Origin: Tetrahymena thermophila SB210
Lineage: Eukaryota; Ciliophora; Oligohymenophorea; Hymenostomatida; Tetrahymenidae
Length of the DNA stretch: 64,000 bases
Assembly (NCBI RefSeq): GCF_000189635.1
Contig: NW_002476202.1
Coordinates: forward strand, 248,001-312,000
Direction of reading: 5' to 3'
Below are positions 1 through 35,521 of the stretch, one piece after another (within the stretch, counting starts at the first letter, position 1; each line of letters starts with the position of its first letter). Below the pieces are notes generated by a model that had not been told where the DNA came from, did not search any database, and was given only the letters and a program-made list of their open reading frames with translations. A program made the translations under genes and the position numbers.

Positions 1-3000
1 TTTAGTTAAATATATACATCTAATTTGTCCTAAAATCAACGAAAAAGCCGATAGGAGTACTTATTAATTGCTGCTCAAATTCATAAATTCCTATTACATT
101 GAACACATACAGCTAGGACCCATAAAGAGTGTAATAGAAATTTCCATATGTGTCTGCAAATATAAATGCACTGTTTGCTGAGTCATAGAATATATTTATA
201 AGAGTACCAATACCTAATTCTGGAAAAGTGCTTACTACACTTCCTGTGGATTACAAGGTATCTAGGCTATAGAATTTTACTTATCCGTATCTTATCTCAT
301 TAGTGATATAAGCTAAAGTATTTATTTCAGAAAAATAATAACCTTTAACCAAAGTGGCTCCTGGCGGTTAAAAGCTAGTAACTAAGATAAGATTTTATCT
401 CGAGAAAATAAATGCTCCTTTTTAATAGTATATATAAAAAAAATAAGAATTACTAAAGGTATATATATATATAAACATTTTTAAAAAATTGTATTTTAAA
501 ATATATAAATTTTATTTAAGTTACCTAGTGATGTGAATGCTATAACATGCTATGTAGTCATAATTATCTATGATATATTTGATTATATAGAACTTATTCT
601 TGAGATATAATTACCATCAAAACTATAGACTTCTATATTATTAGAATAAACTAAAATATTTTAATATCGCTCATCCCCTATCATGCTAAAAGTTTAAAAT
701 GTAGAGATTTATATTATTTAAACTATTTAAAACTATTATTATTTATTATAAATGACTATCTAGTTAGAATTCATCTAACATATAGTAACAATACTTTAGA
801 ATAAGCAAGCTTAAAATTTTTGTTAATTAGGTTGTGATAAAATTTTATACTCAATTAAATCTAAGGTATATTATAGAAGTGCGTTTCCATATACTAAAAT
901 AGTATTTAATTAATAATCATAAGCACAACCATTGATATATGTTAATTAAGAGTTTTAGTTGCTAGTTGATATTTAATAAGCTTTTTAAGTATCTTCGTTT
1001 TTTAAAATAAGCAATTGATTTGAAAAAGCCAAAACTAAATTTGGGGATTAATAAACTATAATTTGTTAAATTTTATTATTAGAAGTTATGTTTTATTGAG
1101 AATTCACAAAGTCTAATCTGTAATAATACTACTAGGTATGTAAATTATAAGTGAAAATATAATAGCTAGAAACATAGTAAATCAATCCAATATTAAAATT
1201 TTATGAAATAGACTGTAAAGAATCACCTTAAACTAAATTAGGCATTTAATATATTTATTAAATATAGCTATTTTTATTTTCTGGAATTACTATTAATGAT
1301 CCCGTTGTTGAACCCATTATATAAACTGTTTTCTATTTATTTGTTACAACATTAGAAATTTTATCATTTGGAGTTGATATTTTCTTTGCTCTCTGTAATG
1401 CTTAAGTTTGTGTATAAAATCTACCTTCTCCAATAGTAGAAGTGGGACTTTATGGTTGGGTACTAATTATTTTAACAAATGGATATTGTTGCTAATAAAC
1501 AGCAACATTTAACATCTGAGATCCTATTATTAAATCGTAATAATGGGTGAACTAAATAGTTGTATTCAGAGTTATGCTAGAAGTATAGTAAGGATAACCT
1601 TAATTGTATAGAGGAGCATACATTAAGACATAATATGTTTTGTCATCGTACTTATATATGTGCATAATTTGATTTCCAATAAATTAATAAGGTTGGTATA
1701 ATATTTTCAAATCTTAATCAAATATAAAAAGTTGGTTTTGTAAATTACTAAACATTAACAAAGAACCTTTTTAAATAAATAAATAATTTTAATATAAATT
1801 TTTGAATAAAAATAAAAATTTACCTGCGCTTGTAGATAAATTGAACAAAAAGCTATAAACTAATGACTTTATGCCTAACTGTACTATTTAAGATATTTTA
1901 AATTATTGAAGATTTGGATCAAAATCTTAGAATATCATATTGTAATTTGAATCCATCAAATATACTCTCATCTATTGTGAAATATATGAATATTTTACTG
2001 TTTAAGTAAAATTCAATTAACTTATTGATTATGATAAATCTGCCCAAACAGATATTTATGAATTGTATAGTAAAAATATATAAGATCCTGAGGCTAGAAT
2101 ATTTGAATAATAATTTGGATTAATAGTAATTATTTAGTTAATGTTACTATTGTATACATTAAATAAAATAATAGATTTAGTTAACAAGCCTACTCCTATC
2201 TAGCTTTAAAGCATTAAAACTTTTAAGCATTACTAATTTGGAAAAATTATTTGGGAATAAAATATAGGGTTTAATGGATCTAACATATTCCATACAATAA
2301 TTTTACCATCCTTGGAGCAGCTTAATACTAAATTAGAGTTTTCATCATAGTTGATACTATTAATTTGATTGGTGCTATAATTTTGTTTTTCAATAAAACT
2401 TGCAGTCACTCCTATAATTTAATCTTTTATTAAGTCTATTATCTAAATATCTTAAGAAACCACACACATAATTATTTTGTTGTTTATCATTAAGTTTTGG
2501 GATAAAAATAGTTGAGATGGATTATTAATATATAATTATTGAGTATTTATTTTATTTATTGTTATGTTCTAATTTAAAGAATCATATTAAAATTAATAGC
2601 TATCTAATTATTAATTGATATTTAGCGCAAATAATTTATATGCGTTATTATTCAGATTTAATTAGATTAAATCAACAGATTAATCAGTAAGGGAATATTA
2701 GAATTCGTTTAGTTTTTAATTAATATCATAGAAATGCATAATCTACGATCCGTTGAATATAGTTGCTAAAAAATAGGAATAAGCATTTTGATCTGTTAGA
2801 TAAATTGGTAGAAGCAATATTTTGAGTGGTTATTAATAACTTTAAAACAAAATTTGGCATGATTAATTTTGTTAAGATAATAATATAAATCCATTTGTTT
2901 GAGTAAATGTGATTGCGAAATATAATTACTACTGGATTTGAATATTAATCATTTACACAAATATGCCATTTATACCTTAACACATATAATTATTAAAAAG

Positions 3001-3840
3001 GGTTCTAATTTGTAATTAATTATCAACTATTTATAAATTAGCCATCTAAATAGTATAGTTACTATTTTACAATAATATATAATTATTTGAAAGAAAAGCA
3101 TAACTTGGGTAGACAAGTTTTGAATTTATATTTTGATAACTAAGACTAGTAAAATAAATTGTGTTATTTAAATTTTGGTAGGAAGAAATAAAAATTTAAT
3201 TTGTTTAATCGTTATCAGTTGTTAATTAATTCATAACTGAAATTAAACCAGATTAAGTATAGAGTCTTCCCAATTCAATTCTAATTAAGAATTTTTGCTA
3301 AGCAGTTTCTTCAATCCACTCAAAAACTTGATTTTAGTCATTAAGAAGATAGATAGTTTAATTCAACCTGAGTATAGTTTAGATTGATGAATTGAATGTT
3401 TGTGATCTTATATAATTACCTGTCTACAACTCAAAATAGCTGAAAAAGTTGTTGTAGATTGCTATGAGATATCCGTTTTGATGTAAAAATACATCTGTTA
3501 TATTTCTACCTTATGATATTTGATTTGGTTGTATGTACTGAATAGGACAAGTATTTGCTAATTAGCAGGATTAATTAGATTGTTAAGGAATTTAGTTATT
3601 TTCGCATAAAGACACACAACTTGATTGATTGTTTTCGTTGCTAATGTATTGATATTATTCACAAGTACTTTTCTCACATTTTGAAGATGAGCTATTATAA
3701 TTATATCCATCAATGCATAAAGTACAAATCTCCTCTTAAATATCTTGATTGCATATAAGGCATCCTTCTTCACACCCAAATATTGTGAAAAAGCTCAAGA
3801 TAAAGCTGAAAAAAATTATTTTTTTGTTAAATAAAAACAT
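1..3840 (-). CDS. Giant surface protein, tandem copy A1 (5' part only; runs off left edge)
   Basis: I see the N-terminal ~1,225 codons of a protein homologous to A2 and A3; the 3' part lies outside the window. It starts with a hydrophobic signal peptide (MFLFNKKIIFFSF...) followed by a Cys-rich head of CxxC spacing (GCEEGCLICNQ) to about residue 95. A long beta-propeller-like region follows, with one clear WD40 blade near residue 500 (SCSKDGKIIVWNM). TAA and TAG must be read as Gln throughout. Two introns fit frame and GT-AG: 1767-1823 and 418-524, at the same codons in all three copies. Cell-surface location and a receptor or adhesin role are inferred from the architecture; no ligand can be named. 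The start is the first ATG ahead of the signal peptide, conserved in all copies. Confidence 0.88.
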
Positions 3841-4572
3841 ATTTATTTAAATTTAAATAATATTTTGATAACTTTTTATTCTAGTATTATTTGCTTTTTT
3901 TCTTTCCTTTTTACTTATTAATAATAATTAATTTAATAATAACTATATTTTATTTCAAGCCAAAAATTTAAGGTAAAAATAAAATAAAACATCTTGATCA
4001 TTGCTGAATGTACTTTTAAATTTATTAAAAGAAATTAACATTTTTTTAATTATTGAAATCACATAACTGAAAGGAAAATTGTTAGATTTCTAAATTTTAT
4101 AGCTGGCTTTATTTATTATATTTTGGTTCTAATTTACTTTCAAGTAAAATAAACTTCCTATTTGTTTTAAGTACTAAAATTTAAACTTACTAAATATTTG
4201 AGTTGGGTTGAGTTAAAAATGCAATCAATTGATTCTAACGTGATTTATATAAATAATGATTATATTTAGTTAAAATAAAACTATTTTAGGACTTAAAATA
4301 GAAAAAGAAATTGAAATCATCATAAAAAGTAATTAATTCTAAATTATAAATTAAGGTTTTTCAGATCATTTCTAAGCATGAAAAGTGAAAAATGACTTTA
4401 AAATATGTTTATCACTTTCTAAATTTATTATAAATTTTACAGCAATGATAAATTCATAGATAATACAAAACTAAATTGACTAATTATTTATTTATTTATT
4501 TATTATTTGTAATTAATTATACATAATAAGAGTTTATCGGATTTAATAGTTTTTCATATAACTTTAATTATT
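3841..4572. other. 5' flank of A1, shared with A2 and A3
   Basis: AT-rich spacer with no open gene. Long stretches align by eye with the flanks upstream of A2 (17342-18230) and A3 (30344-31238), for example the segment around 4080-4140. It is therefore part of the duplicated unit and probably carries the A1 promoter and the receiver-ORF 3' end. No specific regulatory motif is recognisable. Confidence 0.6.
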
Positions 4573-5151
4573 TCAAATTTGATATGATGAAAAAAGCATA
4601 GTGATGAATTCATTTTGTTGGCTTTATATTTTATACTTAATAGGATAATTCAAAATAGATTTTTATAAAAATATTTTTTATTATTTTTCTTCAACAGGTT
4701 TTTATAGGTAAAATTTAATTCTGTATATATAAAGCTTTTCTTCTTCTTTTTAAAAGCCTGAACTCATAATAATTTGAAGTTAGCTAAAAATTTATTTTTT
4801 ATTTGCTTATTTTTCTAAAAATTTTCTTAAATTCAGCTAATAAAATAATCTAATTGACTCATATCCATCTATTTCTGGCATTTATGCGTCTATAAAGAGA
4901 AAATAATAGCATTTTTATATCTTAGCTAACCCTCTAATACACTCTTCTCCTTAATAAATAGTTGTAAAGTAAAGTAATAAATTTTTATTAAACTACTTTA
5001 ATGTAGAGGTAATTATTATTTTCAAAACAAAAGAACTAGATTAATCATCATCTACAATTAAAATATTAATTTCAGTGTCAAAAAATGTAGAATACTATTT
5101 TTACTCGTAGAAATCTTCATTATAATCTCTTAAATTCTTTGAGTGATTCAT
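4573..5151 (-). CDS. Stand-alone response-regulator receiver domain (truncated kinase copy)
   Basis: An uninterrupted 192-aa frame from ATG 5151 to TGA 4573, closely similar to the last ~200 residues of the hybrid histidine kinase at 31239-35521. It keeps the receiver hallmarks: an acidic triplet (ILIVDDDQ), the phospho-acceptor loop (FLFIDAQMPEIDGYES), the Ser/Thr position (IIMSSGF) and the conserved Lys (YLQKPVE). The kinase, membrane and H-box parts are absent upstream; a TGA closes the frame about 40 codons before this ATG. It is either a functional phospho-acceptor protein derived by duplication of the kinase 3' end, or a recent fragment not yet decayed. The sister copy upstream of A2 is clearly broken, so survival here may reflect selection. 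Receiver identity is secure; expression is unknown. Confidence 0.6.
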
Positions 5152-5369
5152 TTTTTGAAAAAAACTATTTGCTGTTTGATTTTTAGAAATAAGTTTATTA
5201 GTTTTATCAACTTTTTTAAACTAAATATGTAGAAATTCTAAGTATTTTATGATATTATGTCATTTAAATTGAAAACACCTGCCTTTTTTATGAGACTATG
5301 ATTGTAAAATAACTTATATTTAACCTATTATTTATTAATTTTGATTTACTTAAATATCTTTTTCAGAGT

Positions 5370-6430
5370 TTATATTTTATAATTAATCATTTGTAATAAA
5401 AATTTTCGTCTTTTTAGAAACTAATAACATCTATACTAAACAATTTACCTGTTTTTCATAGTTGGAATTATTATTTGATTTTATAAATAATTTAATATTT
5501 CCTCGAAGATTCCAGCTTAAAGTAAAAAAGTATTTGAAATTATTGAGATGCTATAAATGATATATTTTTAGCTATAATTAGTAAGAAAGAATAATTAATT
5601 TCTTTATTTAATAAGGCTACTATCACTTAATTTATAAACTTTTAAATTATTTTCTGAGATAGTACTTATTATTAATAATTTTTTAAATGGTATTAGCATC
5701 TAGATTAATTAAGTTTCCAATTATTTTAATCAAAATAATTTATACTTAAGTATACTATTTTATTTGTGATATAATATAATTCAACATTAAATTTAAGCTA
5801 AGATAAACTATTTATAAAGTAAATGAATTCTGATTCTAAACCATGTAAAGAGAGACAAAATCAAAAAATAAAATTCATTTACAGTTTTCATATTAATCTT
5901 AGATATTACTAATGATTTTACAGGTAACTAAATTTATAAAAATGTATATTTATTTATAATATAAAAATCATTAGATAATTATTAACAGCTTTATTTAATA
6001 TGCAAACTTGTTTATTAATTCACAGCTAAAATAAATCATGAATTAAGATTGAGTCTTCCAAATTAAGAAAATTGATAGTTTAATTCATCTTGAGTATATT
6101 TGATATTGATGAATTGAACAAGTGTGATCAAATATAATTTCCTGTCTAAAAATTAAATAGCTAAAAAAATTATAGTAGATTAGAATGAAATATCTATTTA
6201 CATGTAAAAACAAATCAGCTATTTTTATACCTTACAAGATTTGTGTTGATTATATGTACTTAGATGGGCAAATATTAGATTCTTAGTAGGAATTATTAAT
6301 TATTAAGGGAAGAGTTATTTTTATATATACACAAAATTTGATAAATTATCATAATTATTGATGAATTGGTATTGTAGAAAACTTAAATATTCCTATATCA
6401 ACTTATCAGATAACATAAAAGCTACAGGAT
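5370..6430 (-). pseudogene. Decayed fragments of an A-family gene
   Basis: Two kinds of A-gene sequence lie here in the same orientation, without an open frame. About 5370-5960 resembles the propeller part seen at 12660-13090 of A2, and seems to hold two overlapping decayed copies. About 6040-6270 resembles the N-terminal part at 3250-3560 of A1. The intervening A sequence is missing, so this is an internally deleted, heavily diverged former A copy. The homologous spacer before A3 keeps a smaller piece (19050-19330). Confidence 0.65.
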
Positions 6431-7400: not shown

Positions 7401-7479
7401 TTGCTTTTTTAGCATAATTTTTTAATTTATAAGTCATCTTTAAATATTCATATTTTGTAAAATTACAGATACTTTTACT

Positions 7480-8110
7480 TTTATTTAGAAATAATTAGAT
7501 TTAATAGTTTTTCAAACTAGTTTTTAATTATTTCTTATTTGAAATTTAAAAATAATATGAAAATTTTCTGATGATGTCCTTTTGTTTTATTTTATTGTAG
7601 ACCTCAAGAAGTATCAAGAAGGAATTCATCATATTTATTAAATACTATTTATTATTAATTAAATTATAATTATCCTCAACAGCTTTTATATGGATAATTC
7701 TGTTAGTTTTAAGTGTTACTTCCTATTTTAAAACCTGAACACGTGATAATTTGAGTTAACTCAACATTTATTTTATTTTTTTCTATTTTATTAATAATTT
7801 ATTACTTCTTAAATTTAGTTAATCAATTTATCTAATTGACACATATCTCTCTATATTTGGTATTTAAACATATTTAAAGAAATATGAAAAGTATTTTTAT
7901 GTTTTAACTAGCTCTACCAGAAAAAACTTTATTAAAATAAAACTAATTTTTATTGAACTACTTAAATTAATATGAAATTTTTATTTTTATTATTGTAGAA
8001 GTTAATAATAGCTTTTAAAAATTAGAAAAAATTGCTTTGCCATTTTTCTTAAGTGAAAAAATAAGTAGAGTAAAAAGACTGAATTGGAATTACTCAAAAA
8101 AATTTTTTAA
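7480..8110 (-). pseudogene. Older decayed receiver-domain fragment
   Basis: The stretch 7600-7960 aligns, with many differences, to the receiver-coding region at 4690-4930: the same order of words around the phospho-acceptor loop (near 7840) and the KPV region (near 7680). No frame is open. About 8010-8110 resembles part of the 359-nt intron of the intact kinase (near 33280-33380), so a longer kinase segment was once here. This is a second, older receiver duplication than 4573-5151. Confidence 0.55.
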
Positions 8111-8208
8111 TTATTTAAAAAATAAATTTTATTATAAAAAGATACATAATTAATGTTATTTAAGAAATAAATGAATCAAATAAAATAAATGTTTAAATAT
8201 ACATTCAA

Positions 8209-11200
8209 TCACTAAAATAAATTTTTTGAATTACACCTTGTTATACTACTTGAATAAATTATATTAGGTGTATCTTATAAATCTATATTTTTATTTGTAA
8301 AAATATTTTTTCTTAATTTTTTTAAATCATATTTACTATTAGATAAATTTCTAAAGAATTTATTTTATATCTATAAATCCTAATTTTCTTATTTATTTAA
8401 AGATGTTTTTTCATCTACTACATCTTAATCTCTGAAACCTAAAATAAATCTAGAGTTTTTGCTAATAGGTGTTTCTATTTATGGAGATTACTTTGGAGAT
8501 TATTAAGAATAGGTCTAAGTAATCATTTTAAAACTTTATTAAATCTAATCTTAAGTAATTAGTTCTAATTTTTATAAAAATAAATATAAGTTAATTAATA
8601 AATTTTTAAAAATTAAATTTTATTATTTAATTAAAATAATTGTTTTACATTTTTAAGAACTGTAAACTTTTTCTCTCTTCTAAGAAAAATTTTATAAATA
8701 TTCAATTTAATTCACAAATAGCTATTTTCTAATATAACCTAAGTTTATGTAAATCTTTCTCCACAAAAATAATGCCTTAAAATTATTATCTCTATTTTAG
8801 AAAAAATTTTTAAATAACCTATTACCAAGTATACATACCAAGAATTTATTTATGTATTTATTATTAACAGAAACTATTTTCATTTTTAGAATAATTAGAA
8901 GTAAGAAAATAGTTAGTAACATGTGAAAAGCGAATACTGATAACTATATTATAGGATCATTTAATTATAAAGATAATTATTAAAGCAGAAACATTACAAG
9001 AATAGTTATAAAGCAATACTATTCATAAAGGTTATTATATCTATTCAAAAATGGTTGATATTACCTAATGAGGGAGATATATATACTTATCACTACAATA
9101 TTTAGAGTCTACTAAGTATTTTTAATTTAATTCAACAAATTTGTAATTAATACAATACAAATTTTAGTGTAGATTCTTAAGAACTCCCAATAAAAGAATC
9201 TATTTTTATATTCCATATAAAAATATCCATATTTTAAATTTATTGTGCAATAATTTAAATTTTTTGCTATTTTATAATCCCTAAAAAATCTTATAAAAAT
9301 ATAAATAGGAAATAAAGACCAAAAAAGTAATTGAGGTAGTAAGGAATACAACTTAAAATGCTAAAATGATTCATCATTGCAAAGAATTGTTAGGTTTGTT
9401 GTTACATATTATTTATTTCCTATTTATCTACAAGATAGTGAACTAACAATGAATGCTATACTATTAGGCTAAAAGAAAAAGAAAATCATATAGCACAAGA
9501 TATATTTGTAGAACCTATTTATTTTCAACTTTAAGAAATAGTTAACTATAATTAAGAAGAAATAAAGTAAAAAAAAGACAAATAAAGGCAATAAAAGGTA
9601 AACATAAGACCTTATCACTAAATCATTTTGACTATTTATAGAAGATCCAACATACTTGTAAAGACATTATCCATTTAAAACAATACTAGTTACTGGAGAA
9701 CCTGTATATAAAGGAATTATATTTAATGTACTTGGTATCAATTAGTAATTAAGATTTATTAGGACTGCTGATATTTAAAAATAGTTTATTAAAGTTTTTA
9801 TTACAAAATTAGATTAGTCTAAAACACAACTATTAGAAAAAGGCACAGTTTTTAGTAATCTTAAGTATGTAAGTGTACTTGTATAAACATATTATTTGAT
9901 AAAAATAATTGTAGATAAGCTTAAATATACAGCCAAAAGAGATAAAAGTAATATTACAAAGAACAACTATAAAATATCTGAGCTACATTTACTACATCCT
10001 ATTGTAGACATGCTCTAAGAATATGTATTTCCTTTGAATACAACTCCAAAATAGTCACATGTTTCACAAAGTGGTCCTATATGACCTTCAATACATCCAT
10101 TTTATTTGGTAGGATCACAAATACCTGGATTTAATAAATTACATTAAAATATTGCATCCGTTTGATTGTTTTCCCTCCAATATCCTTATTATAAGATTAT
10201 TATATCTGAATAACAGCTTTCAGAACCTTCAGGGCACTTTTTACATATATAATTGCTTATATTTTACTATAATTTATCATAAATAGTAATATTTGTTGCA
10301 TCTATTGGATCTAAAAGAGAGTATGTTTAATTACTACACTATACACAATTTACTATATTTTTTGAGACTTAATAATAATATTCACCTTTTTTGCAATTTC
10401 TAAAATTTGATGTTATATTTAAAGTAATATTTTATGACCAATCATTTACCTTAATTTAAAGAAAAGTAGAAGTTATCTGATACAAAGGGAAACCAGAAAT
10501 TTAGAGATTATTAAATAAAAAGCTATTAGAAATTTGATCATAACTATGTAAATTCGATATACTATCTCCTTTTATTTCTATGATATCATTCGTAGAATTT
10601 GATAATATTTCAATACTATATTTCTATAATTCTTAGATTAAAGTTTAAGGATAAAAATTGTTCATAAATGATTATTTATCAATTATAACACTTTAGTTGT
10701 ACTAATCTTACAGCTATAGAAAGAGTTTAATACTTCCTCCGCTCTATATGTTTTAGAGAATTAGATTATCCTAATCTGTGTTAAATAATTACCCTGTATA
10801 AATCAGAGATTTCTTATTAAAATCATTTCCTTAATAAATTAAATACTAATAAGGATAAGTCCCTATATCATGTCCATAAATTTATCCTAAATTACTATCA
10901 AATTATGCCTAAATTGTTTTAAAACTATATAGGTATCTCTAATACATTTACTAACTATACAAAATTCTCATAGCTCCACCTATTTAGGCTACATTATCTT
11001 TAAATTATGTGTTTTAATCGATTGTAATGTTGCTAGTATCTAATAAATAAAGAGATCCACCACTAGCTTAAGCTACATTTTTAGAAAAATTTGATTGATA
11101 TATTATTAAATTTTAGTTATTTAAAAATTAAAGACATGAACCCTCAATACCAATATTACTATTAAATTAGCTATAATTTATCTCAACTAAATCAGAATTA

Positions 11201-14200
11201 TTAATCATTATATTTCCATAATTATTATTGTAGTTCATGTTATCTATTTAAATATTGGAGCTAGAAATAGACAATAAATTATTTTAGATATCTTTATTAA
11301 ATTATGTTGGAAATTTATTGTAATTAATAGCTGATTATAATATAAATATTTTATCATAAGCAAGAGTCGTGGTTTATAAGTTGGTAATATACTATTTATT
11401 TGATTTAATTAAGCATAAATCATTATTATTGATAGCATTAAAAAATATTATTTAGCTCAAAACTATGCCTTACAAATTTATCAAATAGAATTGATTTGAT
11501 TATTATAATTATCTGTTTGATTTTTATTTTTGTTATTCTTAAATATTTTTGCAGTTTATAATTGTAAAGTTTTATATTTTTAATAAATTTATTTATGCAA
11601 GGTTTAATAATGTGTCTGATAAATAACTATCTTTAATGATGATATTTTAAAAAATAATTTTATCAATATTCTAAAATACCATTAGTTCTTAATTCCCTAC
11701 TTATTATGTTAAATTTGTAATAAATAGATTTTCAATTAGTATGTAGGAGATGTTTTAAAATTAAAATAGTTATTATTATTAACTCTAAACATTACTTTAA
11801 TTTGAAATTAATGAGATCGAACTTATATTCATATTTATAATTTATATTTGTTTAACATTTTAAAATATTAAAGATGTCCCTTAGATTATGTTCTAATCTT
11901 AAATATTGCAATTCTAAAAAATAATACTTTATGATTATTATGAAAATGTATATTAAGCGCTTTAGTTTAAAAATATCATGTTGAAATTATTAATACTAGC
12001 ATTAGATTAAATATTCCTAAATGAATTTTAAGTTAAAAACAATTGATTTTCTTAAACGTTTTAAGGACTTAAGATGAATTGTATATTTTATTTGGAAAGA
12101 AAAGATAAATTATTTATTTTTTTATCTAATAAAACAGAAAAGTAATAATTTGTTGGCTGCGAATTCTAAAAGCTGTAAATATTATTAAATTAAGCCTATG
12201 TCTACTAAGCAGAAGTATATTGCATCTCATATTAGCAAACTTATTAAATATTAGTATTATTTATAGAATTAATTATTGATTATTATAAATAATCTAAACT
12301 AATTGTTTCCTCAAATACACCAGATTAATGTAAAATTAGTATTTGTAATTATGAATTTCTATTTATTTTAAATGAGGCTAGTTTCGGATAAGAAAATTTA
12401 ATTTAATTGATAGAATTTATAAAACCACTTGCTTCATTTAATAAAATAATTTCTAGTTACTAAAGATAGATGATTAATAAGATATCTTCAGTAATAGGAA
12501 TAATATTAGCTATTTGATACTAATTACTTCTTCTGATAAAATTTAAATATTAAAGCTATTAATTATATATATTTAACTAGAATTAGCAATACATAATAAT
12601 AAATTTCTTTGTTTTTACAACTTATTTAAATTAAACGTCTGGAAAAGCTAAATATTTAATCAGACTGTTATCACTTAATTTATAAGCTCCTAGCTTATTT
12701 TCAGAAATAATACTTATAAAGTATCTATCATTTGGTTAATCAACTTCAAAATACTAGATTTGATTAACTTTTAAATCATTTTGAGCATTAATGTTTTGCA
12801 AAATGTCATTATTTATTTATAAATCTTTTTTCTAAAATGTATTTATATCTAGATTAATAAATTTTCCAGTTTTTGTAATCAAAATAATTTATTCCTAAGT
12901 ATATATTTCTATTTTAGAAACAATATCATTTAGCACTATATTTTAGTTAACCATAAATTATTTCTAAAGTAAATCGATTCTGATAACAGATCCTGTACTC
13001 AGAGATAAAAACAAAAAATAAGATCCATTTACTGTTGTTAAATTAAGCTGAGATGTTATTATTGAGTTTGCAGGTAATTAGATTTATTATAAAATTTAAT
13101 TATTTATAAAATCAAAATCAATTAAATAATTATTAATAGTTTAGATCAATATAACATTTTAATCAATAAATAAATATTATCTCAAACTAATATTTATTTA
13201 ATATGCAGGTTATGAAAAGCTTAAATTTTTATAGACTTTTATTTAATCCTTCGTGCTTAAAGTATAGATTGATGTATTATTATATACAAAGTTTCTCATG
13301 TCTATAACATCTTATTATAGTTAAAAGAGAAATTTAACTATTTAATTTTAATACAAAAATATATTATTATTTTAGTCACAATAAATTAGCTGATTGTTAT
13401 TATTTAGCTCATTTAAAACAAAGAAAAAATATTTATTGTTTGATTAAATCATTTTTTTTCCAGTTTTAATTAGTAGGTTATAGTAGGCAATCCAAACTGA
13501 GTTTTAGTTAAATATATACATCTAATTTGTCCTAAAATCAACGAAAAAGTCGATAGGAGCACTTATTAATTGCTGCTCAAATTCATAAATTCCTATTACA
13601 TTGAACACATACAACTAGGACCCATAAAGAGTGTAATAAAAATTACCATATGTGTCTGCAAATATAAATGCACTGTTTGCTGAGTCATAGAATATATTTA
13701 TAAGAGTACCAATACCTAATTCTGGAAAAGTGCTTACCACACTTCCTGTGGATTACAAGGTATCTAGGCTATAGAATTTTACTTATCCGTATCTTATCTC
13801 ATTAGTGATATAAGCTAAAGTATTTATTTCAGAAAAATAATAACCTTTAACTAAAGTCGCACCTGGTGGTTAGAAGCTAGCTACTTATTCAAGATTTTAT
13901 CTAGTGAAAATAAATGCTCCTTTTTTAAAAGTATATATAAAAAAATGAGATTAGCAAGTAGCTAGTATACACAAATCACTTTAATAAAAAATTGTATTTT
14001 AAAATATATATATTTTATTTAAGTTACCTAGTGATGTGAATGCTATAACATGCTATGTAGTCATAATTAGCTATGATATATTTGATTATATAGAACTTAT
14101 TCTTGAGATATAATTACCATCAAAACTATAGACTTCTATATTATTAGAATAAACTAAAATATTTTAATATCTCTCATCCCCTATCATGCTAAAAGTCTAA

Positions 14201-18230: not shown

Positions 18231-18234
18231 ATTG

Positions 18235-19330: not shown

Positions 19331-19539
19331 AATTTAAATTTAATCAATAATAGTGTTTCCTCTATATAAATTAAGATATGATGGATAAATTGATTTGCTT
19401 AAGGATTAAATTGAAAGAAATTATTTAAAAATATTTAAAATAAATATGATAATTATTGTTTAATTTATGCTTATATGTTATAGAGTTATATAAATATAAA
19501 AGAATAAAATAATGAAAAACGAGGAACAGTTATATCTTA

Positions 19540-20500
19540 ATTACTGATGAATCGGTATTGTAGAAAATTTTAATATTCCTATATATATCATCTAAACAGA
19601 TAACATATAAGCTACATAATTAGATAATTTACTAATTAGTATTAATATATTATTAAAGGAAATTGATGGATATTTCTCAATATTTATTAATTGTGAATTA
19701 CTTTTAATCTATACGATAGACAATTTAAAAACCACATATTATACTCTAATACCTCTACTTTTGTATTAAATTGATTTAACTAGTACTGTGAAGCAGTAAT
19801 AATTTAGTTTTAGTTGATTTTTTTAGTAGGCTTAGGGACAGTAGGTTTTTAGATTGCTTTCCCTAGTTTTCATTATTATTGGAATGTTTAGTCCTTTGAG
19901 CTTCAATATCCATTTCTTAAAACAAAGGTACTTCTTCAATTATTTCTAATTTAATCATAAATTATACCCCAGTTTTTAGAAAGTGGGTTTAGGCAGATTC
20001 AGTACTTAGTAGATCAAAGAGAAATTTTTTACTAATCATTTAGCTTCATTCTGTCTTAATTGACTATGTTAATTAGGGTGAATTTGGTAATATAGCTCTT
20101 CTTATTGGGTAATTTAGTTGTTATTTTATTTTTATTCTACTTATTATTATTAATTAACTTCTGATTTATTAACTTAAATGACAGGTTTCTTCTAGCTCTC
20201 TGTTTTTGCTAGGAGCTTATAGGGTACGTTAATATCAATGGGTAAAAAGCTAATGATAAGATCACCTGATAATACTTCATATTAGTAATTTTAGCTGAAA
20301 AATCTTAGAGTTATTCATTGATTTAGCATATTTAAGGAAAGCTTGGTCATTAATGTTTTAGGTCGACTTTTGAGCTTAGAATGGTAATTAATGGAGTTTT
20401 TTTACCTTTCTTAAAGATATTGATAAGTAATTTGCTAAGAGAGTAGTAAGACAAGTGATTCATAAAGGTTTCAAAGAGGTAGTAAATGTTTACTGAGCAT
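19540..20500 (-). pseudogene. Decayed unidentified gene, copy 2, with flank
   Basis: Homologous to 6330-7400. The part 19800-20060 corresponds to the MNLPNP... codons but has lost a base, so the frame shifts; 20100-20160 is an insertion absent from copy 1. The word LKYAKSMNNSKIF is still legible near 20300. It is further decayed than copy 1. Confidence 0.4.
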
Positions 20501-20529: not shown

Positions 20530-21020
20530 AGAGTAATAGTTTTTCAAACTAATTTTTATTTATTTCTTATTTGAAATTTAAAAACAATATAAAAATCTTT
20601 TTGATGATTTCCTTTTGTTGTATTTTGGATTTAATGAGGAAATAATTATATTTTTCTATTAAAATATTTATTATTATTTATAAAATTTAATTATTTTTAA
20701 AAGGATTTTATAGATAATACTTGATTATGTAAGTTTTAAGTTTTATTTCTTATTTTTAAAAAACCAGAATACATGATAATTTGATTTAGCTCAATATTTA
20801 TATTTCTTTTGTTTATTTTTCTATTAGTTTATTTCTTCTAAAAATAAGTTATTCAATTTATCTAATTGATTCAAATATGGCTATTATTTGCCTTAATACA
20901 TATGTATAAATAAATTAAAAATATTTTTATGTATTAACTAACTCTCACCAGTAAAACTAAATATTAAAAGAATATTAAACTTTTATTAAAGTACTAAAAT
21001 TTATAGGAAATTTCTATTAT
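20530..21020 (-). pseudogene. Older decayed receiver fragment, second unit
   Basis: Aligns with 7480-8000 and, more weakly, with the receiver region 4690-4930. No frame is open. It lies just beyond the 3' end of A3 as its partner lies just beyond A2, so it belongs to the ancestral repeat unit. Confidence 0.5.
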
Positions 21021-21215
21021 TGTAGTAGTTAATTAAAGTGTTTAATAAATTAGAATAAATTACTTTGGCATTTAACTTTTAATTGAAAAAATAAATTAAG
21101 TGAAACTATGGGATGGAACTACAAAAGAATTTTTTTATAATTAAAAAAATCAATTTTATTCTAAAATGAATATTATTTAAGAAATTAATAAAATTAGTAT
21201 TTTAATAACACTTAA

Positions 21216-24200: not shown

Positions 24201-27200
24201 ATTATTAATCATTATATTTCCATAATTATTATTGTAGTTCATGTTATCTATTTAAATATTGGAGCTCGAAATAGATAATAAATTATTTTAGATGTCTTTA
24301 TTAAATTATATTGGGAATTTATTACCAGTAATAGTTGATTATTTTATAAATATTTTATCCAAATCAAGAGTCATTGTATATTAGTTGGTGATGTACTATC
24401 TACTTGATTTAATTAAGCATAAATCATTATTATTATGAGCATTAAAAATTATTATCTAGGTCAAAACTATACCTTACAAATTTATCGAATAGAATTGATT
24501 TGATTATTATAATTATCTGTTTGATTTTTATTTTTGTTAAACTTAAATATTTTTGCAGTTTATGATTGTGAAATTTTATATTTTTAATAAATTTATTTAT
24601 ATAAGGTTTAGTAATGTGTTCGATAAATAACTATCTTTAATTATGATATTTTAAAAAATTATTTTATCAATATTTTGGAATACCATTAGCTCTTAATTCC
24701 CTACTTATTATGTTAAATTTGTAATAAATAGATTTTCAATTAATATGTAGGAGATGTTTTAAAATTAAAATAGTTATTATTATTAACTCAAAACACTACT
24801 TTAATTTGAAATTAAAGTGATTGAACTAATATTCATATTTATCATTTATATTTGCTAAATATTTTAAAAAACTAAAGATGTCCCTTAGATTATGTTCTAA
24901 TCTTAAATATTGCAATTCTAAAAAATAATACTCTATGATTATTATGAAAATGTATATTAAGCGCTTTAGTTTAAAAATATCATATTGAAATTGTAAACAC
25001 TAGCATTCGATTAAATATTCCAAAATGAGTTTTAAGTTAGAAACAATTGATTTTCTTACACATTTTAAGGACTTAAGACGAATTGTATATTTTGTTTGGA
25101 AAGAAAAGATAAATTATTTATTTGTTTATCTACTAAAACAGAAAAGTAATAATTTGTTGGTTGTGAATTCTAAAAGCCGTAAATGTTATTAAATTAAGCC
25201 TATATCTACTAAGCTGAAGTGTATTGCATCTCATATTAGCAAACTTATTAATTACTACTACTTCTATTATTATTATTATTTATAGAATTATTTATTGATT
25301 ATTATAAATAATCTAATGTAATTATTTCCTCAAATACTCCAGATTAATGTAAAATTAGTATTTGCAACTATGAATTACTATTTATATTAAACGACGCGAG
25401 TTTTGGATAAAAAAATTTAATTTAATTGATAGAATTTATAAAACCACTTGTTTCATTTAATAAAATAATTTCTAGCTACTAAAGATAGATAATTAGCAAG
25501 ATATTATCAGTAATTGGAATAATATTAGTTATTTGATATTAATTACTTCTTCTGATAAAATTTAAGTATTATAGCTATTAATTATATATATTTAACTAGA
25601 ATTAGCAAGACAGAATAATAAATTTCTTTGTATTTACAACCTATTTAAATTAAACATCTGGGAAATCTAAATATTTAATCAGGCTATTATCACTTAATTT
25701 ATAAACTCCTAGCTTATTTTCAGAAATAATACTTATAAAATATCTATCATTTAGTTAATCAACTTCAAAATACTATATTTGATTAACTTTTAAATCATTT
25801 TGAGCATTAATATTTTATAAAATGTCATTATTTATTTATAAATCTTTTTTTTAAAAGGTATTAATATCTATATTAATTAAATTTCCAGTTTTTGTAATCA
25901 AAATTATTTATCCTTAAGTGTATTTTGTTATTTTAGAAATAATATCATTCAGCCCTAGACTTTAGTTAATAATAAACTATTTCTAAATTAAATCTATTTT
26001 GATAACAGCTCCTGTACTAAGAGACAAAAACAAAAAATAAGACCCATTAGCTGTTGTCAAATTAAGCTTTGATGTTACTAATGAATTTGCAGGTAATTAG
26101 ATTTATTATAAAATTTAGTTATTTATAAAATCAAAATCAATTAAATTATTATTAATAGTTTAAATCAATATCACATTTTAATCAATAAATAAATATTATC
26201 TCAAACTAATATTTATTTAATATGCAGGTTATGATAAGCTTACATTTTAAAAGACATTTATTTAATCCCTCGTGCTTATAGTATAGATTACTGTATTATT
26301 ATATACGAAGTTTCTCATATCTATGATATCTTATTATTATTAATTTAGAAATTTAATGGTTTGATTTTAATATAAAAATATATTATTATTTTAGTCACAA
26401 TAAATTAGTTGATTATTATTTTGTTCATTTAAGATGGAAAAAAAAAATTTATAGTTTGATTTAATCATTTTTTTTCCAGTTTTAATAAGTAGATTATAGT
26501 AGGCAATCCAAACTGAATTTTAGTTATATATGTACATTTAATTTGTCCTAAAATCAACAAAAAAGTCAATAGGAGCACTTATTAATTGTTGCTCAAATTC
26601 ATAAATTCCTATCACATTGAACACATACAGCTAGGACCCATAAAGAGTGTAATAAAAATTTCCATATGTATCTGCAAATATAAATGCGCTATTTGCTGAA
26701 TCATAGAATATATTTATGACAGTGCCAATACCTAATTCTGGAAAAGTACTTACAACGCTTCCTGTGGATTACAAAGTATCTAAACTATAGAATTTTACTT
26801 ATCCGTATCTTATCTCATTAGTGATATAAGCTAGAGTATTTATTTCAGAAAAGTAATAGCCTTTAACCAAAGTGGCTCCTGGTGGTTAGAAACTTGCAAC
26901 TTAGACAAGATTTTATCTAGTGAAAATAAATGCTCCTTTTTAAATGTAAATATAAAAATAATGAATTATAGCTAGAAGTATACATAAATGAAATTTAATA
27001 AAAAAAATTTATTTTAGTTACCTAGTGATGTGAATGCTATAACATGCTATTCAGTCATTATTATTTATGATATATTTGATTATATAGAACTTATTCTCGA
27101 GATATAATTACCATCAAAACTATAGACTTCTATATTATTAGAATAAACTAAAATATTTTAATATTTCTCATCCCCTATCATGCTAAAAGTCTAAAATGTA

Positions 27201-30200
27201 GTGATTTATATTATTTAAACTATTTAAAACTGTTATTATTTATTGTAAATTACTATCTAGCTAGAAATAATCTTACATAAAATAACAATATCTTAGAAAA
27301 AGCAAGCTTAAAACTCTTAATGATTAGGTTGTGATAAAATTTTATATTAAGTTAAATCTAGCGAATATTATAGAAGTGCATTTCCGTATACTATAATAGT
27401 ATTTAATTAATAATCATAAACACAACCATTGATATATGTTAATTAAGAGTTTTAGTTGCTAGTAGATATTTGATAAGCTTTTTAAGTATCTTCGTTTTTT
27501 AAAATAAGTAATTGATTTGAAAAAGTCAAAACTAAATTTGGTAATTCATAGATTAAAATTTGTTAAATTTTATTATGAGAAGTAATGTTTTATTGAGAAC
27601 TAACGAAATCTAACCTCGAATAAAACTGCTAGGTATGTAAATTATAAGTGAAAATATAATAGCTAGAAACATAATAAATCAATCCTAAATTAAAATTTTA
27701 CAAAACAGATTGCAATGAATCTCCTTAAATTAAATTAGGCATTTAATATATTTATTAAATATAACTATTTTTATTTTCTGGAATTACTATTAATGATCCA
27801 GTTGTAGAGCCTATTACATAAACTGTTTTCTAAGCATTTGTTACACAATTAGAAATTTTGTCATTAGGAGTTGATATTTTCTTTGCTCTCTGTAATGCTT
27901 AAGTTTGTGTATAAACTCTACCTTCTCCAAAAGTAGAAGTGGGACTTTATGGTTAGACATGAACTATTTTAACAAAAGGGTATTATTGCTAATATTATGC
28001 AACAGTCAAGAGTTAAGATCCTAAAATGAAGTCATAATAATGGGTGAACTAAATAGTTGTATTCAGAGTTATGCTAGAAGTATAGTAAGGATAACCTTAA
28101 TTGTATAGAGGAGCATACATTAAGACAAAATATGTTTTGTCATCATACTAATATATGTGTACAATTTGATTTCCAATAAATTAATAAGGTTGGTATAATA
28201 ATTTCAAATCTTAATCAAATATAAAAAGTTGGTTTTGTAAATTATTAAACATTAACAAAGAACCTTTTTAAATAAATAAATAATTTTGATATAAATTTTT
28301 GAATAAAAATAAAAATTTACCTGCGCTTGTAGATAAATTGAACAAAAAGCTATAAACTAATGACTTTATGCCTAACTGTATTATTTAAGATATTTTAAAT
28401 TATTGAAGATTTGGATCAAAATCATAGAATATCATATTGTAATTTGAATCCATCAAATATACTCTCATCTATTGAGAAATATATGAATTTTTTACTGTTT
28501 AAGTAAAATTCAATTAACTTATAGGTTATGATATATCTGCCCAAACAAAAATTTATGAATTGTATATTAAAAATAAATAAGATCCTGAAACTAGAATATT
28601 TGAATAGTAATTTTAATTAATCTCAATTATTTAATTAATACTATTATTGTATACATCAAATAAAATAATAGATTTAGTTAACAAACCAACTCCTACCTAG
28701 CTTTAAAGCATTAAAACATTTAGGCATAACTAATTTGGAAAAATTATTTGGGAATAAAATATAGGGTTTAATGGATCTAACATATTCCATACAATAATTT
28801 TACCATCCTTGGAGCAGCTTAATACTAAATTAGAGTCTTCATCATAGTTGATACTATTAATTTGATTTGTGCTATAATTTTATTTTTCAATAAAACTTGC
28901 AGTCACTCCTATAATTTAATCATTTATTAAGTCTATTATCTAAATATCTTAAGAAACCACACACATAATTATTTTGTTGCTTATCATTAAGTTTTGGGCT
29001 AAAAATAGTTGAGATGGATTATTAATATATAATTATTGAGTATTTATTTTATTTATTGTTATGTTCTAATTTAAAGAATCATATTACAATTGATAACTAT
29101 CTAATTACTAATTGATATTTAGAGCATATAATTTATATGCGTTATTTTTATTATTCAAATTTAATTAGACAACATCGACAGCTTAAGCAGTGAGGGTATA
29201 TTAGAATTCATTTAAATTTTAGCTAATATCATAGAAATGCATAATTTACGATCCGTTGAATATAATTGCTAAAAAATATGAATAAGCATTTTAATCTGTT
29301 AGATAAATTGGTAGAAGCAACATTTTTTGTGGTTATTAATAATTTTAAAACAAAAATTGGCATGATTAATTTTGTTAAGATAATAATATAAATCCGTTAG
29401 TTTGAGTAAATGTGATTGCGAAATATAATTACTGCTGGATTTGAATATTAATCATTTATGCAAATAAACCATTTATACCTTGACACATATAATTATTAAA
29501 AAGGCTTTTAATTTATATTTAATTATCAATTATCTATAAATATGCCATCTAAATAGAATAGTTACTATTTTATAATAATATGTAATTATTTGAAAGAAAT
29601 GCATGGTTTGGGTAGGAAATTTAGAAGCTTTAACTTTATTAATTAAGACCAGTAAAGTAAATTGTGTTATTTAAATTTTGATAGGAAGAAATATAAATAG
29701 AATTTGTTTATTGATTATCAGTTGTTAGTTAATTCATAACTGAAATAAAGCTAGAATAGGTATTGAGTCTTCCAAATTGAATTCTTACTAAGAATTTTTG
29801 CTGAGCAGTTTCTTCAATCCACTCATAAACTTGATTTTAGTCATTAAGAAGATAGATAGTTTAATTCAACCTGAGTATAGTTTAGATTGATGAATTGAAT
29901 GTTTGTGATCTTATATAATTACCTGTTTAAATCTCAAAATAGCTGAAGAAATTGTTGTAGATTGCTATTAGATATCCGTTTTCATGTAAAAATACATCTG
30001 TTATATTTCTACCTTATGATATTTGAGTTGGTTGTATGTACTGAATGGGACAAGTATTTGCTGATTAGCAGGATTAATTAGATTGTTATGGAATTTAGTT
30101 ATTTTTGCATAAAGATACACAATTTGATTGATTGTTTTCGTTGCTAATGTATTGATATTACTCACAAGTACTTTTCTCACATTTTGAAGATGAGATTATA

Positions 30201-30343
30201 TAATTATATCCATCAATGCATAACGAACAAATATCCTCTTTATTATATTGATTGCATATAAGACATCCTTCATCACACCCAAATATTGTAAAAAAGATCA
30301 ATATAAAGCTGAAAAATATTATTTTTATATTAAATAAAAACAT
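21216..30343 (-). CDS. Giant multi-domain surface/transmembrane protein, tandem copy A3
   Basis: Full-length 2,994-aa paralogue of A2 (exons 30343-28321, 28263-27022, 26935-21216; total divisible by 3). Same order of parts: signal peptide (MFLFNIKIIFFSF...), Cys-rich head, propeller with WD40 blade, Pmp-like GGxx repeats, second Cys-rich module and a C-terminal multi-pass domain. It differs from A2 by scattered substitutions plus small in-frame indels, for example around 25240-25280 and 29140. The spots I checked by eye in the head, near 25,400, near 24,400 and at the C-terminus are in frame. It lies 895 bp downstream of the intact histidine kinase. Function is inferred only: a cell-surface receptor or adhesin. 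Confidence 0.9.
26936..27021 (-). other. Intron 2 of A3
   Basis: An 86-nt GT...AG intron at the codon shared with A1 and A2. It is shorter than the 107-108 nt of the other two copies. Confidence 0.75.
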
Positions 30344-31238: not shown

Positions 31239-34200
31239 TCATTTTGTTTAATTTTTATTTTAGACTTCTTAAGGTAATTCAAGATGGTTTTCTATAAAAA
31301 TATTTTTTATTATTTCTAAAATTTAATTATCTTCAACAGGTTTTTATAGGTAATATTTAATTCTGTATATATTAAGTTTTGCTTCTTCTTTTTAAAAGCC
31401 TGAACACATAATAATTTGAAGTTAGCTAAAAATTTATTTTTCTTTTGTTTCCTTTTCTAATAATTGGTTATTTCTTAAATTAAGCTAATCAATTTATCTA
31501 ATTGACTCGTATCCATCTATTTCTGGCATTTGAGCATCTATAAAAAGAAATTAATAACATTTTTATGTCTTAACTAGCTCTCTAATACACTCTTCTCCTG
31601 AATAAACAGTAGTAAAACAAAGTGCTAGATTTTTATTAAATTACTTAAATGCAGAGGCAATTTTTATTTTCAGCGCAAAAGAACTAAATTAATCATCATC
31701 TGCAATTAAAATGTTAATTTCAGTGTCAAAAAATGTAGAATACTATTTTTTTCTCATAGAGCTCTTCTTTATAATATCTTACATTCCTTGAGTGATTTAT
31801 TTTTTTGAAAAAAAATATTTATCATTTGACCTTTAGTTGATAATATTTACATCTTATTTATCACTTATCTGTAATTATATTTCTTTTAAAAGTAAGCTAA
31901 CTTTATATTTTTAATTATCTTAAATATACAAATAACTATTTTTATCGCTTTAAATTGGAATTTCTTCATTTTAGGGACACATTTCTGCTATATACTTGAT
32001 ATTGTTCTTAATTTTTTCTTAGTTATCATTAAAGCTTGATGTATAACTTTAAGGGTTATCATCAAATGAATCTGGCTCGCTTTCGATTGCAGTCTAGCTT
32101 CTTTCTTAAATTTACTAATTAATGTTATTGATAGATCCATTTTTATATGATTCTTTTTAAAAGGGATAAAGAAGTTGCTCTTATTATAAATTATCTATTT
32201 AAGAAAAAACTGAAGTTCTTTTATGATTATGGCATGGGCTTTTACTGAATTATGCAACTTCTTATTATTATTTTAATTCAACTTATTGAAAATTATATAC
32301 AAGAAAGTAAAATTCAGTGCCTTTTTATACTTCTTCATTCAAAATTAATCCTTCTTCAATAGAAAAAGAGGATAAATATGAAGGTGCTATTGTTTATTTA
32401 CTATCCCTATTATCTATTTTATTTCCTACAGAGCGATAACTGTAGGAAGATTATTATTATTATTAGGTAGGAGTTATTTAAGAACGTAAATGATATAATG
32501 AACTATTTTTTGGGATAAATATTGCATGTTGGCTCAAATTCTATTAATCAGGCTTTAAATTCTTAGCTATAGTATTACTAATCATTAAACCAAGTCCAAC
32601 TCCTTGAGGGTTATTTTTAGTTTAGGATTCAGTATCATCAAGTTTACCAAATGCTTAAAATAACTTTTATCTAAATTCTTGCTTGATTCCTACACCTTCA
32701 TCTCTAACAGAAATCCTAAAATAGCGATCATCTAGCCTTTCTTGTGTCAAAGTAATGTAAATATTACCACCATACGTGTATTTGATAGAATTACTTATTA
32801 AATTTATAAGTATTTAGCGTATCCTGTATTTATCAGATTAAAAATTGGCTACTTTATTTTAAATAGCTTCTTCTACTTAAAGAATTATCGTGTTTTGTTT
32901 ATTTTTAGCTAGAGGTTGCATCATCTGTTATATTTCTTAGAGTATTTAGCATAAATTAAATTATTCTATTACTAATTTGAATTTTCCTGCTTTTATTTAA
33001 GACATATCAAGTAAATCATTTAATAAGTTAAGCAACAGTTTACTACTTTATAATGCTGATTATGTGCAATCATAAATTTAATTTTAACTATTTTTTGAAA
33101 TCTATATAATAAAATTTTTAATTTAATAAACATTTGGTATTTAGAATTCAACATAATTAATTAATAATAATAGTATAACTTTGAAAAATTATAAATAATA
33201 AAATATAAAAAATAAATAAATAATCGCTGTTTATAAAAAGTGTGATTGAAATATTTTTGAATATTTAATTAATTAGAAAATATTGCTATAATGTTTTTCC
33301 TAGCTAAAAAAATAACCTCAGTAAAAGTATAAAATTTGAATTACTCAAGAAATTTTTTTAACTGACTCAAAAATAATTTTAATTTATTAAAAAATATTTG
33401 TTTTTTTGAAAATAGTAAAATTTAAAGTTAATAAAAGTTGATAAATTGATTAAATAATACCGATTGTATTTCTTCGAGCATCGCTATAATACAACTGATT
33501 GGGTTTCTAATTTCATGAGATACTTGTGATAGCATTAATGATTTATTCTTATTTAGTGATTCTAATACCTTTATTTAGTTAAAATGGGTTACATCTTCTA
33601 TTATAAATAGAATCTACCATATTTTTTTAACTAATATAGGAGCCATAGTAATTTATATTATTTTTTCTTTTTATTATGGTTGATTTAGACTAAAGGATGA
33701 ACTTTTTAGATATAGATTTTAACTATTTTTACAAATAGATATATTTTTCGGAGCTGCTAAAAATTTTATTTTAAGAAATTTTAAATCTTATTCGTTGTAG
33801 ATCTTATTTTTGATAATTTGAATAATTTCATCAATTTAAGATTTTAAAAGGTATTAATTAGAATAAAAAGACTACTTAAGTTAAGATTCACCTTTTATAT
33901 ATAAAAATAATAATTTTTTATACTTTAAATCATATTAAAAAATAATATCCTTACTTTAGTTTTAAGGTTATAAATTTTTTATAGTACTTGAGTTTTAATC
34001 CAAAAATTCACCATGCTCATTATTTAAAATTGATGCTAAATTTTACATATTTTGTATTGAAGCATTAAATTTAATACTTTAAAATTGTTAATCAGTATTT
34101 GATTTAGGGCGTTAGGAAATACAAGCTAAATCCTAAAATAGCTCATTTGGTACTAAATCAAGATTTCTAGTTGTTTAAAATTTTTTAGCAAACTCTTTTT

Positions 34201-35521
34201 GGTTAGGTTTCATGTAGTTTCTAAAAGTTTTCATAATATTAAGTATTTCTGAGCTGTCTTTCTCATTAAAAATGTCTTAAATTTACTTGTTAACATAAGT
34301 AACATTTTTGCTATTAAACTAATTAAAATATAAATTAAAAAAATAAAAATCATCTATTAAATTTACATCATAGCACAAGACTCCTAAATTTATGCTTTCT
34401 AATATCATTTATAAAGGAAATTCCTTTTTTACTTATAAAAAGCTATTTTTCTTAATTTCTTAAAAACCAACAGTCTTTAGCTTGGCTATCTTTTTCTAAA
34501 TAGAAAACTTGGATTTATTTAAGCTTTTCGTTATCTTATTAGGTTTTTAAAAGTGTTAGCCAAGATTTATATTGTTACCAAAAAATTAAAATTAATTATA
34601 AGATGTCATAGAATTTTTATTGCTTTCCAAATTATTTTAGCTTCCTTTTCTTGTAATAAGTTTTGAAAATTTTTCATCAGTATTTTAATGAGCAAGCTCT
34701 ATGATATTTGAATTTTCAAAACTTTAAGATTTTATATTTATCTGACAATCAAACGCATATTTATCTGGTTTATTTAACAAATTCTGATTCTAAAGCAATT
34801 AGCCATTTTCAAGTTCTAATTTAACTATAGGAGAACTACTTTAATTTTAAAATTCTAGCTATTACTAATGATTGATTATATTTAATTGATCATGTTTATT
34901 ATAGGACTTACTAGCATTATTTTAAGCAATAAAACTCATATTTATTAGGTTATTTATACAGATCTTATTATTGATATAGTATTTAAACGTGTACACAGAA
35001 ATAGCCAATCCAAAGTATAGAGTTGCAAAAATATCATTTAAAGTACTTTTCAAATCTATATTTAAAAGGCATAAATAAAATAAAAAGATATAAAAAATTG
35101 TTTTTAACATTTTTTTTTGCAATCTATTCAATATATTAGCGCATAGTAAACACTCTAATAATGCGATCATTTTTAAGATTTCATACTATTAGTAATCTTG
35201 ATATAAAGAATCGCTAGCTGTAACATAAAAAATATTTAAAAATATACACGAAAGTAGCAAGTTAATAAAATAGATAGCAAAAATCAATATCCTTTAAGCT
35301 TTTTAAGCTTTATGCTTTAATATTATTAACCCTAGTAGAATTATTAAAAAAAAGCAAATGATTATGTCTGAAATCCTAAAATAAATAGATTATTCCTTAA
35401 TTTTTTCATCTTTTATGTTTAAATCTTGATGAACTAAATAAGATAATTGTTTTATTATTTGAAACACTAAGTAAGATATTGTTGGAATCCATTTTTTTTG
35501 TTTTTAGCTAAATTATTCCAT
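31239..35521 (-). CDS. Hybrid sensor histidine kinase with C-terminal receiver
   Basis: A 1,307-aa membrane histidine kinase (exons 35521-33461 and 33101-31239). The N-terminus has about 4-5 hydrophobic segments between residues 50 and 180. The H-box (SHEIRNPISCIIAMLEE) lies near residue 665, the dimerisation helix ends LLNLLNDLLDMSQIKAGK, and the HATPase has N-box (LINLISNSIKY ~787), G1 (VRDEGVGI) and G2 (GVGLGLMIS ~852). A Ser/Asn-rich linker leads to a receiver ~1,147-1,265 with acidic triplet, FIDAQMPEIDG and QKPVE. It should autophosphorylate on His and pass phosphate to its own Asp; the signal sensed is unknown. No clear PAS domain is seen. The ATG was chosen because it opens the frame leading into the membrane segments. 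Such hybrid kinases are known in ciliates. Confidence 0.92.
33102..33460 (-). other. 359-nt intron inside the histidine kinase
   Basis: GT...AG interval, phase 0, between EEIQS (after the H-box) and ISKNSQNQIYDCTQSAL. Removal restores the DHp/HATPase frame exactly. It is several times longer than the other introns in the window. Reading through it stays free of TGA but ends in the wrong frame. Part of it (near 33280-33380) resembles the relic at 8010-8110. Confidence 0.75.

Follow-up and report, generated by a model that had tools for sequence, protein, structure and literature searches.

How did a gene for a giant membrane protein come to stand in several copies in a row, with pieces of an unrelated neighbour gene between them? 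This question is raised by a 64,000-bp stretch of Tetrahymena thermophila SB210 (assembly GCF_000189635.1, contig NW_002476202.1, bases 248,001–312,000; hereafter the window), in which a gene that we call A occurs three times in tandem as A1, A2 and A3, and the end of a hybrid histidine kinase gene precedes each of them. It is quite probable that the locus is a tandem array built in the germline by two nested rounds of duplication, both with their right ends inside the kinase gene, and afterwards reshaped by unequal exchange. The window lies at the end of a 314,250-bp chromosome within a 101.0-Mb, 445-contig genome, with CCCCAA repeats at the left terminus of the chromosome and GGGGTT repeats at the right. 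Tetrahymena macronuclear chromosomes carry such telomere repeats at both ends. The genome also encodes, in a 1.8-kb stretch, a telomerase that agrees with T. thermophila or a very close strain: the two main blocks of its alignment, roughly 240 residues, are identical to the reverse transcriptase of PDB 6d6v (T. thermophila), and a 21-residue insertion and the ragged alignment ends probably represent intron and flank. Long minus-strand frames are visible in the window under the ciliate genetic code (table 6), which was used after a bacterial reading had been rejected: table 11 gave no open reading frame of at least 120 aa, and no match to the TonB-plug family was found, which was counted against that reading too.

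The gene copies and the kinase are as follows. Positions are those of the window unless given as contig positions, and negative numbers lie left of its edge.

3,840 (start) to −5,107, minus strand: A1, with its 5' part at 1–3,840 in the window and its stop at contig 242,893; gene model with two conserved introns, tblastn
8,209–17,341, minus strand: A2, intact, three exons, 2,987 aa, no internal TGA in the gene model
21,216–30,343, minus strand: A3, intact, three exons, 2,994 aa, gene model
−7,424 to −16,138 (contig 240,576–231,862), beyond the left edge of the window: A0, 2,852 aa to the first TGA
31,239–35,521, minus strand: whole hybrid histidine kinase, recognised from translations, Pfam, tblastn and a scan for transmembrane (TM) segments

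A1, A2 and A3 are same-strand copies of a gene for about 3,000 aa, with three exons and two introns whose positions are conserved. The gene models start 11,264 bp (A0–A1), 13,501 bp (A1–A2) and 13,002 bp (A2–A3) apart, and the last two spacings agree with the offsets of about 13.5 and 13.0 kb given for three A units by an earlier note made from the sequence alone. Matching offsets (13.50–13.51 and 12.99–13.02 kb, at 88–98% identity) were found for the first nine repeat families among the 20 listed of 32. A frameshift near the C-terminus of A1 shortens and alters its tail (2,927 aa to the first TGA); this and the early stop of A0 could be decay or sequencing error.

The kinase has a membrane-spanning N-terminal part (four TM-like segments in a simple hydropathy scan), followed by a putative HisKA region and by HATPase and receiver domains, and one intron at about 33,147–33,421. 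HATPase_c scored 65.7 bits (cut-off 26.4) and Response_reg 38.2 bits (cut-off 30.2) in Pfam; the putative HisKA region is split by the intron, and its two exon pieces, at 22.5 and 15.4 bits, each fell short of the cut-off (26.9). As the earlier note had claimed, a whole kinase stands only in the right-most unit: the single full copy, at 35,521–31,239, lies upstream of A3 alone, with 0.9 kb between kinase stop and A start. The kinase receiver end that the note had placed upstream of every A gene was matched by tblastn at all three, namely at 5,181–4,681 for A1 (E 9e-58), at 18,875–18,283 in two frames for A2 (E 1e-28 and 7e-21) and at 35,521–31,242, the whole kinase, for A3. The homology is thus present at A1 and A2, where its absence had been named as one of the points on which the reading would fall. 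When the kinase was searched against the whole chromosome, all eight high-scoring segment pairs (HSPs; E≤1e-4) fell within contig 242–284 kb, inside the array, so these tail matches are not background similarity.

The spaces between the A genes hold more than kinase tails. We refer to the A1–A2 space as gap 1 and to the A2–A3 space as gap 2; the A0–A1 gap lies left of the window. Their contents define two recurring junctions, J1 and J2:

4,379–5,186, minus strand: R1, gap 1 relic of the kinase tail, made up of the receiver end and the 3' flank of the kinase and ending at J1; 81% DNA identity to the kinase 3' end, E 0.0
5,188–5,456, minus strand: A0-derived piece of gap 1, joined to the kinase tail at J1; 84% identity to A0 versus 65–68% to A1–A3
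5,550–6,373, minus strand: gutted A gene of gap 1 (5' end and middle pieces), of the A1–A3 lineage by blastn and identities
7,475–7,987, minus strand: R2, second kinase relic of gap 1, from the C-terminal end and with greater divergence; 73% DNA identity to the kinase, E 1e-77
8,020–8,144, minus strand: kinase-intron piece of gap 1 adjoining the A2 3' flank (J2); 75% to the kinase intron region, E 3e-17
18,036–18,877, minus strand: R1', kinase-tail relic of gap 2, frameshifted; 82% DNA identity to the kinase 3' end, E 0.0
18,877–19,172, minus strand: A0-derived piece of gap 2, second copy of J1; 88% to A0 versus 67–70% to A1–A3 (over 18,878–19,140)
19,225–19,316, minus strand: what is left of the gutted A of gap 2, with more lost than in gap 1; blastn to A2, 81% identity over 57 bp and 88% over 40 bp
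20,534–20,946, minus strand: R2', second kinase relic of gap 2; 76% DNA identity to the kinase, E 3e-80
21,041–21,195, minus strand: decayed kinase-intron piece at J2 of gap 2; 67% to the kinase intron, E 0.001 alone, in register with the other two gaps

Gaps 1 and 2 therefore contain two kinase relics and one gutted A gene apiece, features that the earlier note did not have, as it did not have A0. The order of elements in gap 2 is that of gap 1 with more deletion. In gap 1, about 90 bp without assigned match lie between the A0-derived piece and the gutted A, which is separated from R2 by a spacer. This gutted A is 78–80% (middle) and 74–75% (5' end) identical to A1–A3 versus 63–66% to A0. R1 has an open frame of 192 codons, and R1' a frameshift plus TGA stops. 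The note had proposed extending the comparison beyond the left edge, where more units with kinase tails would support its model. This does reveal one more A gene, A0, at a distance of 11.3 kb, and the space between A0 and A1 contains a kinase scrap, but this scrap consists of linker sequence that follows the ATPase domain and precedes the receiver (contig 242,158–242,523, matching kinase 280,101–280,480) and a kinase-intron piece adjoining A1 as in the other gaps. Since it is not the receiver tail, the extra unit does not form a clean further row of the pattern.

The main array features rest on blastn matches with E values of 3e-17 to 0. For comparison, the best match in 60 dinucleotide shuffles of this AT-rich DNA had an E value of 3e-10 and the best match on the same chromosome outside contig 226–286 kb 9e-11; at a low threshold, the gaps gave 498 matches in the 60 shuffles and 599 elsewhere on the chromosome. 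Gap matches with E above about 1e-9 are mostly AT-rich noise and were used only if in register with a stronger match. Some weak matches, which alone are at or near noise, were accepted through such register: in gap 1, two short stretches of the gutted A (E 9e-11 and 2e-12), and in gap 2, the gutted A (4e-9 and 5e-8), for which the register is with gap 1, and the kinase-intron piece (0.001).

The junctions carry most of the argument. At J1 the order is kinase tail, 0.3-kb A0-derived piece and gutted A in both gap 1 and gap 2; the kinase homology ends at contig 279,836–279,837 and A0 homology starts directly at 235,851–235,852 in both. J2, where kinase-intron sequence reaching to about 281,396 meets the 3' flank of A, is present in each of the three gaps, weakly in gap 2. 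As the base positions are identical across gaps, each junction most simply would have arisen once and been copied later. The two kinase breakpoints are about 1.6 kb apart. The earlier note had described a single segment running from inside the kinase through A. The duplicated DNA does end inside the kinase and run through A, but there are at least two breakpoints rather than one, and the far end of the younger segment is the middle of another A gene, reached via the 0.3-kb A0-derived piece. When units were aligned outward from the A start in ten 500-column steps (204–472 aligned columns each), units 1 and 2 stayed at a similarity of 0.75–0.83 throughout, and unit 3 dropped to 0.52–0.68 beyond J1, where it enters the intact kinase. 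The locus has the marks of a tandem segmental duplication: adjacent copies in the same orientation, homology through the spacers, a shared junction and one whole neighbour gene at the outer end.

The copies fall into two ages. A1–A3 differ pairwise by 6.7–8.3% of their coding sequence, and by 3–13% per 150-codon stretch before codon 2,850; with differences along the coding sequence they are not a single sequence that the assembly has tripled. Synonymous divergence (dS) among them is 0.17–0.23 with an omega of 0.23–0.26 (first 2,880 alignment codons), and we judge them to be of similar recent age. A0, the left-most copy, branches deepest: against each of A1–A3 its dS is about 1.5, with an omega of 0.19. 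Purifying selection seems to act on most of the length of all four copies. The kinase tails behave in another way. Differences from the kinase at codon positions 1, 2 and 3 are 0.126, 0.110 and 0.143 for R1, 0.149, 0.138 and 0.149 for R1', 0.205, 0.276 and 0.276 for R2, and 0.237, 0.224 and 0.243 for R2', so that none of the four tails has a third-position excess; the corresponding values for pairs of A1–A3 are 0.06–0.07, 0.04–0.05 and 0.10–0.13. The decay of the relics is neutral-looking, as expected without selection.

The trees and site patterns bear on how the units were copied. R1 groups with R1' against the intact kinase with an ultrafast bootstrap (UFBoot) support of 77, R2 groups with R2' with 100, and A1 groups with A2 with 85. 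At the 912 sites where one of A1–A3 differs from the other two, adjacent sites shared the same pattern 434 times, against a shuffle mean of 313 (0 of 2000 shuffles as high). The shared-derived sites alone gave 130 such pairs versus 104 (3 of 2000 shuffles). The longest identical run of polymorphic sites was unusual for A1–A2 (3 of 2000) and A2–A3 (31 of 2000). The A copies are probably mosaics, with patches exchanged between them.

A history that accommodates these results would start from one A gene with a hybrid histidine kinase as its upstream neighbour. An older tandem duplication would have created J2 by fusing the kinase intron with the 3' flank of A, and this round and later copying would have given A0 and the ancestor of A1–A3. 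A younger duplication would then have created J1, where the 0.3-kb A0-derived piece bridges the linker before the kinase receiver and the middle of a different A gene, and with it a unit of about 13 kb that comprises a gutted A, an old kinase relic, an A gene and a kinase tail. Between such long units, unequal homologous exchange could add or remove whole units and homogenise patches. Each unit would carry about 0.9 kb of spacer upstream of A and so leave the A copies usable, which may be why they survive, and the kinase ends would decay because their start, their ATPase domain and presumably their promoter are absent. Macronuclei are not passed on through sex, so the duplications would have taken place in the germline (micronuclear) nucleus. 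The direction of growth, which the earlier note took to be fixed as leftward from the kinase, does not follow: after any duplication with its right end in the kinase, the whole kinase stands at the far right no matter which of the copies is the new one, and A0, which branches deepest, is the left-most copy.

Several observations weigh against this history. Firstly, the two-step model predicts a gutted A derived from A0, but the gutted A is mostly A1–A3-like; a simple two-step history in which it came wholly from A0 was rejected, as only the 0.3-kb piece at J1 is A0-like. Secondly, the R2 pair is 74.7% identical versus 81.5% for the R1 pair, a difference not expected from one simultaneous duplication of the unit. 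These two misfits call for at least one further loss, exchange or template switch. Thirdly, support for the A1–A2 and R1–R1' groups is moderate (85 and 77), the similarity of units 1 and 3 is already down to 0.68 in one alignment step before J1, the gutted-A (mid-A) remnant and J2 of gap 2 are weak on their own, and the A0–A1 gap contains an extra 120-bp A scrap. As for mosaicism, the longest-run test for A1–A3 was not clearly unusual (107 of 2000 shuffles), and uneven constraint along A may add to the clustering of sites.

The best of the alternatives is a variant of the history above, in which J1 was made by replication-based template switching, similar to microhomology-mediated break-induced replication (MMBIR), and the A0 piece is a templated insertion. 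The piece comes from a gene that now lies about 44 kb from the kinase breakpoint, little or no homology is visible at the kinase/A0 join, and the stretch without assigned match follows directly after the insert. Still, homologous exchange accounts best for the way in which whole units were copied afterwards, the exact join is hidden by decay, and ordinary exchange between A0 and A followed by deletion could look alike; we regard the variant as possible but doubtful. More speculative is the idea that germline breaks recur within the kinase gene, so that two independent tandem duplications of the A locus both broke there, the younger being sealed with a templated A0 insert. If true, it would imply that array growth at this locus began by template switching during replication and that unequal exchange came only later.

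A single event, in which one segment from the kinase tail through A was duplicated and repeated leftwards, would explain why the receiver tail precedes all of A1–A3 and why the intact kinase is right-most. It is already contradicted by the shared junctions and the two ages: J1 and J2 are two kinase breakpoints, each gap holds two kinase relics of differing divergence and a gutted A, and the dS of A0 far exceeds that within A1–A3. We consider it very unlikely. Less likely again is that the kinase tails were kept, as small separate receiver proteins or as regulatory parts paired with the A copies. The open frame of R1 upstream of A1 would fit this, but the codon positions of all four tails and the broken frame of R1' argue against it, as does the wider genome: among the matches listed, none of at least 16 A-family matches, on at least eight other contigs, has a kinase within 47 kb. 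A functional pairing of A with histidine kinases was rejected as the cause of the arrangement on the same comparison (A matches at E≤1e-10, listed kinases at E≤1e-5), in which both lists are lower bounds, with 64 of 100 and 20 of 740 candidates scored. Finally, although the array is known from one assembly, an assembly artefact is hardly credible given the divergence of the A copies, differences of about 20% in the spacers, unit-specific deletions in the gaps and telomere repeats at both contig ends.

The earlier note called A a surface receptor. The protein has a hydrophobic signal-like N-terminus, Cys-rich stretches and 3–5 TM-like segments per copy near aa 2,400–2,770, and a surface receptor is a plausible product, but no Pfam family reached its cut-off in P0001, P0002 or P0005 (best WD40, 24.6 versus 27) and no relative with a solved structure was found in PDB at E≤0.1 for a 2,410-aa part of A. 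Single-sequence AlphaFold models of the N-terminal and C-terminal parts of A2 were poor (pLDDT 34 and 38). In a chromosome-wide tblastn search, A produced 22 HSPs, of which 16 lie in the array and six belong to distant relatives at contig 17–58 kb. Three distant relatives of the A C-terminus, 26–35% identical and in both orientations, lie at contig 17,300–19,600, 41,450–43,760 and 55,930–58,240.

Other features of the chromosome were seen as well. Outside the window, contig 153,000–190,600 contains another tandem array, with offsets of 6.4 and 7.2 kb, whose frames have the look of ABCA-type transporters (recognised by eye), and a direct repeat of about 0.29-kb period lies at contig 66,840–69,826, inside a Cys-rich frame of 1,532 codons. 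The window itself also holds one frame with a protein kinase domain and a MORN repeat (Pfam) at 56,848–58,833 and a tRNA-Met gene at 42,333–42,406, both on the minus strand.

The kinase ends that were dragged along serve as dated tags that tell old junctions from young, and they separate the birth of the array (non-homologous) from its growth (homologous). Within the same units, the relics provide a neutral clock beside selected copies, which makes the array a tidy test case for the formation of gene arrays in ciliates. No title about this array was found in the open-access literature, in searches that were not aimed at the locus by name.

Compared with known systems, the right-most gene shares with hybrid histidine kinases (HisKA–HATPase_c–Response_reg) the HATPase_c and receiver domains above Pfam cut-offs, and its putative HisKA region is split by an intron; the relics in the gaps differ, as start and ATPase domain are missing from every one of them and what they retain of the coding sequence has decayed. 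Short templated insertions are known from the junctions of other tandem duplications. J1 resembles these in holding a short piece from elsewhere in the locus, but its decay has gone too far for microhomology, or the sequence in which templates were switched, to be visible. Tandem duplication is described as frequent in Tetrahymena, and unequal crossing over has been invoked for leucine-rich repeat (LRR) genes, in the report by Xiong et al. (2019; PMC6564038). The present locus shares with the clusters described there the genus and the tandem copies. It is unlike them in that its copies encode a giant membrane protein and each comes with a piece of an unrelated neighbour gene that records the breakpoints. 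The array is a well-recorded new example of a well-known kind of event, in a genus where tandem duplication is already common.

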